The notes under the pieces are model-generated. The model saw nothing but the letters and a program-made list of their open reading frames with translations, had not been told where the DNA came from and did not search any database. Positions 15,600-17,830 of a stretch of 64,000 nt of DNA are shown here, piece by piece (the stretch's first letter is position 1; each line of letters opens with the position of its first letter). The DNA comes from Thermococcus barossii (GTDB lineage Archaea > Methanobacteriota_B > Thermococci > Thermococcales > Thermococcaceae): assembly GCF_002214465.1 (NCBI RefSeq), contig NZ_CP015101.1, positions 236,502 to 300,501 on the forward strand. Direction: 5' to 3'. The position numbers were made by a program, and so were the translations under genes.

Positions 15600-16270
15600 G
15601 CGGGGAAGTGGAAGAGATCTCCTTCTCGCGCGAGCACTTCATCGAGATGGATGTGAGGAGCGAAGAGGCCTATGAGCTGGCCAAGGAGTGGTTCGACGAA
15701 GTGGTTTTCACGAAAAAGCTGGTTCTCGAAAGCTCTCCGAACTGGAGTGAGCTCAAAGAGGAGCTCAGGCTTCTCCGCGAGAGGTATGGAAGGGTGGCCC
15801 TTCTCATAGTCACGAAAAAGCCCAGCCTAATCCGCGAGGTGAAGAACCGCAACTTAAAGGCCCTCATCTACGTCCAGGGCGGAGATATGAGGGTGAACCG
15901 CTTTGCGCTGGAGAGCGGCGTCGATGCCCTGATAAGCCCCTGGCTCGGGAGGAAGGATCCCGGCTTCGACCACGTCCTGGCGAGGATAGCGGAAAAGCGG
16001 GGGGTTGCAGTGGGCTTTTCGCTCTCCCCCCTTCTCCGCGCGAATCCCTACGAGAGGGTTCAGCTCCTCCGCTTCATGGCGAAGACCTGGGAGCTGGTCA
16101 GGAAGTATCGCGTTCCCCGCTTCCTCACGGGCTCGGCTGAGAGCAAATGGGAGGTTCGCTCGCCGAGGGACTTGATGAGCCTTGGGATAAACATCGGAAT
16201 GGAAATGCCCGAGGCGAGGGCGAGCCTGAACTTTCACCCCTTAAAAATTCTGAAAAAGTTTGAGGATTAA
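15596..16270 (+). CDS. rnp3: Ribonuclease P protein component 3 (Rpp30)
   Basis: A 224-residue protein of the PHP-like TIM-barrel Rpp30 family, a protein subunit of archaeal RNase P that matures tRNA 5' ends. The fold is seen in [52 protein letters not shown] and [10 protein letters not shown], with SGxAES-like [15 protein letters not shown] near the C-terminus. The ATG at 15596 overlaps the preceding stop (ATGA) and follows GGAGGA. It converges with trpB2, overlapping by 4 bp. Confidence 0.9.
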
Positions 16271-17592
16271 CCCCAGAGGGCCGGGAAGTGCTCGGGCTCG
16301 TAGTCCTCCAGCTTTCCGTCGAGGTAGTCCTCGTAGCCCTTGAGGTCGAGCAGTCCGTGCCCGCTCAGGTTGAAGAGGATGACCTCGTCCTCCCCTTTCT
16401 TCTTCGCCTCCAGCGCCCGGTCGATGACGCCTTTAATGGCGTGGGCGCTCTCCGGGGCTGGTATTATGCCTTCCAGCTTTGCAAAGAGTTGGGCCGCCTG
16501 GAAAACCTCGTTCTGATGATAAGCTACCGGCTCGACCAGGCCGTGGTTTATGAGCACGCTCAGCGTCGGGGCTAAACCGTGATAGCGAAGTCCCCCGGCG
16601 TGAATCGGTGGGACGTAGTAGGTGTGGCCGAGGGTGTGCATCTTCATCTTTGGGGTGTAGCCGCCGGAATCGCCGAAGTCGTACTTGTAAACGCCACGCG
16701 TCATCGATGGAGCGGCCCTGGGCTCGACCGCTATGAACTCGTAGTCGGCCTTTCCTGTCAGGACTTCCCTGACGAACGGGTAAGCGAGACCTGCGAAGTT
16801 GCTTCCACCACCGACGCAGCCGACTATCACGTCCGGCCCCTCGAACTCCTCCATCTGCTCCATCGCCTCAAGGCCAATAACGGCCTGGTGCATTAGGACG
16901 TGATTCAGAACACTCCCGAGGGCGTAGCGGGCCTTTTCGTCACTCAAAACGTCCTCAATGGCCTCGCTTATCGCTATCCCCAGCCCGCCGGGGTGGTTCG
17001 GATCCTCAGCGAGGAACTTCCTCCCTATCTCCGTCCTGTCGCTCGGGCTCGGATAGATCTCAGCACCGTAGAGGCGCATTATCGTCTTCCTGTAGGGCTT
17101 CTGGAAGTAGCTGGCGCGAGCCATGTAAACGCGAACCTTCAATCCGAGGAGCGCTCCGGCCAGACTCAAGGCCGTTCCCCACTGTCCTGCCCCTGTCTCG
17201 GTGACGAGTCTCTCTATCCCCTGTTCCCTAGCGTAGTACGCCTGGGCCAGGGCGGTGTTTATCTTGTGGCTCCCCGTCACCGTTGCCCCCTCGTACTTGA
17301 AGTAAATCCTTGCCGGCGTTCCGAGGGCCTTCTCAAGGTTCGTGGCCCTGAAGAGCGGCGTTGGGCGACCGATTTTGGCGTAGAGCTCGCGAACCTCCTT
17401 CGGTATCTCGATGTACCTTTCCCTGCTCATCTCCTGCCTTACGAGCTCCTCCGCGAAAATCCTCAACAGCTTCTCGGGCTCCATCGGCTCCTCCGTCTCA
17501 GGGTCGAGGGGCGGTGCCAGCTCCTCCGGGAGGTCCGGCAGGATGTTGTACCATCTCTTGGGTATCCTTGAATCAGGCAGAACGGCTTTCAT
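16267..17592 (-). CDS. trpB2: Tryptophan synthase beta-like TrpB2
   Basis: A 441-residue PLP enzyme of the TrpB2 group, which is longer than TrpB1 and usually encoded away from the trp operon, as here. It can condense indole with serine to tryptophan, or salvage indole. PLP Lys110 is in [17 protein letters not shown] follows, and GGGSNFAG binds the phosphate. The N-terminal extension (about 45 residues with [14 protein letters not shown]) is a TrpB2 mark. GGAGGTG precedes the ATG by 5 nt. The leader of about 200 nt has an unusual series of short frames. Confidence 0.92.
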
Positions 17593-17620
17593 TCCAACAC
17601 CTCCTTGGTTTTGAGAAGTC

Positions 17621-17830
17621 CCAAAAACGAGGGAATAACGAGCGTGAGGGCTAAGCTAAGGGTTTTCCCGCTGGAGGGGCCAAAAGCAATCCCTCCTCAT
17701 GCTAAGGTCTCCAAAAACGATCCCGCCTAACCGCTATCCCGGGTCTCAAGAAGCGCCCGCTAGAGCCAAAAACAATCACTCCTGGCAATCATGGTGCATC
17801 ACTAACCAGATGCGCTCTTCCTTTAATAGG
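17621..17830 (-). promoter_or_regulatory. trpB2 promoter and leader with four T(C/T)G(C/T)TTTTGG repeats and mini-ORFs
   Basis: On the minus strand a TATA box, CCTATTAAAG, lies at 17821-17830, so transcription should start near 17800. The leader then holds four related repeats ending in TTTTTGG or CTTTTGG at 17766-17782, 17711-17727, 17680-17696 and 17621-17637. The first three lie in short frames ending soon afterwards: MIARSDCFWL (17760-17792), a frame ending RRDRFWRP (stop at 17702) and MRRDCFWPLQRENP (17656-17700). Each carries a Phe-Trp pair. A GGAGGG/CCCTCC stem (17673-17696) brackets the third repeat. A tryptophan-sensing leader is an inference. Confidence 0.5.

Follow-up and report, generated by a model that had tools for sequence, protein, structure and literature searches.

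The region upstream of trpB2 in Thermococcus barossii raises the question of why the gene for a TrpB-like enzyme should be preceded by a series of Phe-Trp codons in short reading frames, and whether these codons could control the gene. We analyzed the locus within a 64,000-nucleotide stretch of the genome (the window, to which all coordinates refer) and in related organisms. In the source genome, no TrpA scored above the family cut-off in a profile search. TrpB2 would thus stand alone there, perhaps serving indole salvage; TrpA was found in 12 of 81 relatives. The functional unit considered here lies on the minus strand between two start codons, the ATG at 17792 and that of trpB2 at 17592-17590. 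The gene and its signals are as follows.

16267..17592, minus strand: trpB2, the controlled gene, coding for a stand-alone TrpB-like PLP enzyme (TIGR01415, 722 bits against a cut-off of 519)
17822..17828, minus strand: TATA box (TATTAAA) of the trpB2 promoter, read from the sequence; TTTAAA or TTAAG boxes are equally distant in relatives
17598..17604, minus strand: Shine-Dalgarno sequence GGAGGTG of trpB2, read from the sequence

A sequence-only reading of this DNA had described four related repeats in the leader, three of them in short frames. We located all four on the minus strand (17778-17766, 17723-17711, 17692-17680 and about 17634-17619), and the short frames, MIARSDCFWL-stop, one ending in RRDRFWRP-stop and MRRDCFWPLQRENP-stop, were each found as described. 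The fourth repeat proved to be a different element, ATTCCCTCGTTTTTGGGA, which is found in other phases in relatives, and the leader is best described as containing three (S/R)xD(C/R)-Phe-Trp repeats in short frames and one dissimilar fourth repeat. Repeats 1–3 fit GGATYGYTTTTGG with 0–1 mismatch. Over the whole window this motif was not enriched at up to 2 mismatches (6 matches, 5.4 expected), and the weight of the argument therefore rests on the clustering of the repeats and their conservation. Over the whole genome, RGGNNNGAYYGYTTTTGG with no more than 1 mismatch had 5 matches, 3 of which were the trpB2 leader repeats; these 3 were also the longer-motif matches with zero mismatch. A broader motif search in 61 genomes of the family gave few matches beyond the trpB2 leaders, and these were chance-like.

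Most of 81 Thermococcaceae genomes had an ortholog of trpB2, and we compared 60 upstream regions. Repeat 1 was located in a frame opened by ATG in 58 of them. In all 58 leaders this first frame was short and conserved (pattern M-x(0-2)-(R/G)-S-(D/E/G)-(C/R)-F-W-stop), and in 53 of the 58 the unshifted frame stopped 1–3 codons past Trp, with TGA, TAG and TAA all in use. Neither missing frames nor frame-breaking differences were met in these leaders, as would be expected if the Phe-Trp frames were kept among relatives. In T. barossii, the frame MIARSDCFWL begins approximately 30 nt past the TATA box (17828-17822). Another ATG (17799-17797) was considered as the start and rejected; it is missing in L021, L024 and L047–L049, and the second ATG (17792) is therefore preferred.

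Conserved short frames with Trp codons near the 5' end, upstream of a Trp gene, are features of classical ribosome-mediated attenuation, in which separate Phe-Trp mini-ORFs would act without any frameshift, by stalling ribosomes and switching RNA structures or terminators, and the U-rich sites could serve as archaeal termination signals. However, such a model does not predict how the repeats are phased. This phasing, a shift of +1 from each repeat to the next, is the key feature of the leader and was absent from the sequence-only reading. We followed a path that starts at the ATG and moves one additional base forward at every in-frame TTT-TGG or CTT-TGG. In the window, this path reads MIARSDCF, GSSGRFLRPGIAVRRDRF, GDLSMRRDCF and 30 further residues, and then meets the TGA of an ATGA at the start of trpB2; the unshifted frames stop 1, 2 and 7 codons past Trp at sites 1, 2 and 3, respectively. 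Its parts are listed below.

17790..17792, minus strand: start codon of the path (second ATG); 58/58 leaders have an ATG in frame with slip 1, at a distance of 15, 18 or 21 nt upstream
17760..17792, minus strand: unshifted reading MIARSDCFWL with stop TAG at 17762-17760
17766..17771, minus strand: putative slip site 1, UUU-UGG, with AGGAGTGAT upstream, from comparison of leaders
17714..17767, minus strand: segment 2, the frame past slip 1, GSSGRFLRPGIAVRRDRF, open as far as slip 2
17711..17716, minus strand: putative slip site 2, UUU-UGG, with AGGCGGGAT upstream, from comparison of leaders
17683..17712, minus strand: segment 3, the frame past slip 2, GDLSMRRDCF, open as far as slip 3
17680..17685, minus strand: putative slip site 3, UUU-UGG, with AGGAGGGAT upstream, from comparison of leaders
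17589..17681, minus strand: segment 4, the frame past slip 3, 30 residues, ending at TGA 17591-17589, which overlaps the trpB2 ATG; the same TGA ends 47/58 leaders

The +1 rule led to the trpB2 start in 58/58 leaders: 47 paths ended exactly at the ATGA, 10 stopped within 20 nt, and that of L052 ran in frame into the gene. When no slip, a -1 slip or a +2 slip was applied to the same leaders, none of the 58 gave an exact ATGA end, and omission of site 1 alone or site 2 alone left 1/58. When spacers were shuffled and given random length changes, the ATGA was reached in 0.1–2.6% of trials per leader. The phase was retained over seven different spacings between sites 1 and 2 (25–73 nt), five between sites 2 and 3, and twenty between the last slip and the ATG; because the leaders are related by descent, the 58 are not independent events and these counts of different lengths are the better guide. 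Among 3630 codons the shifted frame had no stop, compared with 279 and 309 in the two other frames, a zero that arises partly by construction, since the path stops at the first stop codon, which makes the endpoint the real test.

The number of sites varied: Pyrococcus-type leaders had 2, most Thermococcus leaders 3, L034 had 4 and L052 had 1. In L026, L029, L042 and L060, a single-base change left one step fewer, passed with no slip, and the downstream phase was retained. In one group of leaders (L002, L003, L005–L008, L012, L013 and L024), the frame was kept because a one-base loss near repeat 4 is paired with a one-base gain. In L052 (genome G021), a single shift puts the leader in frame with TrpB2, for which no ATG is visible; judged from its sequence, TrpB2 translation must here begin through either a slip or a GTG within repeat 1. 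Six additional Thermococcus leaders from a separate collection (L185–L187, L189, L192 and L194) fit the rule, and in L189 the shifted path likewise enters TrpB2 in frame. A two-slip test of the whole G012 genome was passed by 2 of 1583 ORFs, with trpB2 among them. Outside the family, approximately 60 trpB2 relatives in Archaeoglobaceae, Desulfurococcales and bacteria had no such series, save a weak single-slip match in L199. Two trpB2 orthologs within the family, L050 and L051 (genomes G017 and G024), also had none upstream, which is a point against the frameshift reading; G017 nevertheless has a site of the type found at trpC (L181, see below). An excess of synonymous changes, which the sequence-only reading had looked to as a sign of coding, was absent from the spacers: their peptides had pN/pS of approximately 1, i.e., no selection, suggesting that the frame, or being translated, matters and the peptide product does not.

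These observations bear on two of the explanations that require no frameshift. Separate mini-ORFs acting by classical attenuation would account for none of the +1 phase, the open shifted frames or the ATGA endpoint; repeats 2 and 3 often have no start codon in their own frame, and no conserved alternative structure was found near the trpB2 start. We consider this explanation quite unlikely. Of the original proposal, the sensing of tryptophan by translated Trp codons is supported, with frames kept in 58 relatives, and the separate mini-ORFs are better seen as the unshifted readings of a single path with putative +1 slips. The T-rich repeats had also been offered as protein-binding sites; more generally, they could be copies of an element that binds protein or structures the RNA, their frames being accidental. 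Strong nucleotide conservation, which includes a repeat 4 that occurs in three phases, and Y-for-Y changes within the motif would agree with this. However, this would not explain why the phase stays constant across many spacer lengths or why the endpoint is reached in 58/58 leaders, making such an element highly improbable. In a purely RNA-level or DNA-level form it is ruled out by the phase control, in which other shifts gave 0/58 exact ends.

The predicted slip sites resemble the +1 frameshift site of prfB (bacterial release factor 2), whose signal is AGGGGG-N3-CTTT-GA-C, with TTTTTGA variants (PMC12421855). Both have Shine-Dalgarno-like purines, a YUU-U run, a slow A-site codon and, often, C as the next base (PMC12421855). 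In the trpB2 leaders the P-site codons were 154 TTT and 4 CTT, followed by U in every case, so that YUU-U re-pairing is possible, and C was the commonest base 3' of UGG. The conserved upstream purine-rich stretches (AGGAGTGAT at site 1, RGGCGGGAT at site 2 and AGGGGGG at site 3) are partly complementary to the 16S 3' end, GATCACCTCCT, as read from G012. The two systems would also be alike in logic, with a +1 slip sensing a component of translation. In contrast to prfB, the trpB2 sites are archaeal and serial, have UGG and not UGA in the A site, lie in a leader peptide and not in the enzyme itself, and have 5–7 nt between the purine stretch and UUU instead of 3, unless a conserved GAU is counted.

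The same anatomy argues against two other ways of changing frame. RNA polymerase could slip on the T-run and drop one U, so that the frame change would already be in the RNA, and sites 1 and 2 do have five Ts. However, site 3 often has four (CTTTTGG) and in some leaders three (TCTTTGG; L034 and L059), which is short for such slippage, and the conserved UGG would have no role; this explanation is scarcely credible. In a chain of termination and re-initiation, every mini-ORF would end past Trp and the ribosome would restart in the shifted frame. Stops are nearby and a GTG in the shifted frame occurs at site 1 in 58/58 leaders, which could bypass slip 1 and is in this respect a point against a slip there. 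At the later sites, an ATG, GTG or TTG in the shifted frame was within reach in only 6/56 leaders (site 2) and 2/42 (site 3), a scarcity that rules out re-initiation at sites 2 and 3, and a chain of this kind is very unlikely for the leader as a whole.

We consider it likely that the leader is a Trp-starvation switch built from serial +1 frameshift sites that would carry translation to trpB2. Sensing of tryptophan through the translated Trp codons upstream of trpB2 is well supported as the probable function, judging from the compared leaders. The phasing, open frames, endpoints, conservation and lack of peptide selection were observed directly; from them we infer the slip, its dependence on Trp-tRNA and a coupling or polarity step, as follows. 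The ribosome would initiate close to the 5' end, at the ATG at 17792. With ample Trp-tRNA, UGG would be read and translation would terminate a few codons on. When Trp-tRNA is scarce, the ribosome would pause with tRNA-Phe on UUU and an empty UGG, and slip by +1 from UUU to UUU, probably helped in the pause or the slip by the upstream Shine-Dalgarno-like stretch. GGC or GGA would then be read, in a frame open up to the next site. Three slips would bring the ribosome to the TGA that overlaps the trpB2 ATG, where re-initiation could occur with the Shine-Dalgarno sequence GGAGGTG. Because each of the three sites must be passed, the response would be steep. Without slips, trpB2 would be uncoupled and the leader mostly untranslated, and polarity of the FttA type might cut transcription short; FttA has a preference for U-rich RNA, and its proposed action follows the loss of transcription-translation coupling (PMC11616081).

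Frameshifting of a constitutive kind, at a set ratio and not tuned by tryptophan, would yield an identical anatomy. However, most ribosomes would be wasted over three serial slips, the ribosome would wait at a Trp codon upstream of a Trp gene, and a candidate site occurs at trpC as well. We regard constitutive frameshifting as unlikely.

The final part of the leader contains an element of another kind.

17619..17634, minus strand: repeat 4, TCCCTCGTTTTTGGGA, a possible UCCC/GGGA hairpin, read as PSFLG in the shifted frame; nucleotides conserved, in three phases

Its pattern, TCCC-N8/9-GGGA, keeps its sequence in relatives while the phase varies among three, and it is a slip site solely in L034 and L036. 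A sequence that is conserved yet read in three phases probably acts at the RNA level. The stems seen in this part of the leader are one of 3 bp in repeat 4 and a weak one in the start region, with no covariation, and an Rfam search of the leader region gave no match. The gene trpB2 has a strong Shine-Dalgarno sequence of its own, and no conserved structure masking it was found near the start; both points count against the frameshift reading. For the stem GGAGGG/CCCTCC, which had been proposed to bracket the third repeat, no counterpart was noticed by eye in the leaders of relatives.

Several known systems share part of this logic. In trpL and pheL attenuation, as proposed for trpB2, translated Trp codons of a leader report on Trp-tRNA and control a Trp gene. 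In contrast, the trpB2 leader has one Trp codon per site and no tandem regulatory codons, no conserved terminator or antiterminator was found in it, and the predicted readout is the reading frame; frameshifting in pheL was judged incidental (PMC5009743). In the ermC leader, the downstream gene becomes open when translation goes on in a different frame (PMC5009743), but that slip is telithromycin-induced and occurs at a single site with no codon-specific sensing. In hungry-codon frameshifting, shortage of an aminoacyl-tRNA slows the A-site codon and promotes a slip, and a 2016 review knew of no case with a productive trans-frame role (PMC5009743); the trpB2 sites would differ in being conserved, positioned and regulatory. 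Programmed frameshifting in an archaeon is found in Sulfolobus fucA1, which differs in being -1, in an enzyme gene and at a heptamer site. The accessible part of a 2021 review of archaeal recoding names one cellular -1 case and one viral +1 case, and no cellular +1 case (PMC8211752). In literature consisting largely of openly accessible journal papers, we found no report of frameshifting at trpB2 or trpC. As read from the sequences, the predicted ladder of sites is, in anatomy, +1 frameshifting of the prfB type save for the A-site codon and, in logic, an attenuator, and it may well merit a separate class. If the reading is true, frameshifting upon amino-acid starvation would for the first time be known to serve as a genetic switch. 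The leader would then be a starvation sensor with a reading-frame readout, a case of programmed +1 frameshifting in a cellular gene of an archaeon, an AND-type device with frameshifts in series, and one answer to how Trp genes are controlled in Thermococcales.

A second candidate locus is trpC, with which the trp operon begins; the UUU-UGG arrangement was observed there in L087–L092, L180, L181, L183 and L184, downstream of a well-spaced start codon. Of 12 Thermococcales trp operons sampled, 10 had at the trpC start a Shine-Dalgarno sequence of the GGTGA/GGTGG type, a start codon and then GGT GAT GGT TTT TGG or a near variant. The unshifted frame stops in 2–9 codons, and a +1 slip enters TrpC. 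TrpC may need one such slip; start codons are also present in the TrpC frame, and the site is therefore a candidate only. A single-slip scan of G012 was unspecific (103 matches), and trpC was distinguished by its Shine-Dalgarno sequence and its position. The trp operon of T. kodakarensis is reported to be Trp-regulated, with control at the transcriptional level (PMC1854888). With both loci taken together, we lean, somewhat less firmly than for trpB2, towards a class of regulation by serial hungry-codon +1 frameshifting that would act as a steep Trp switch on trpB2 (up to three or four sites) and on the archaeal trp operon (one site, at the trpC start), in which steepness would depend on how many sites are present, and steps would be gained or lost in evolution through single-base indels. 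The arrangement also suggests that trpC and trpB2 start sites may be misannotated in some of these genomes.
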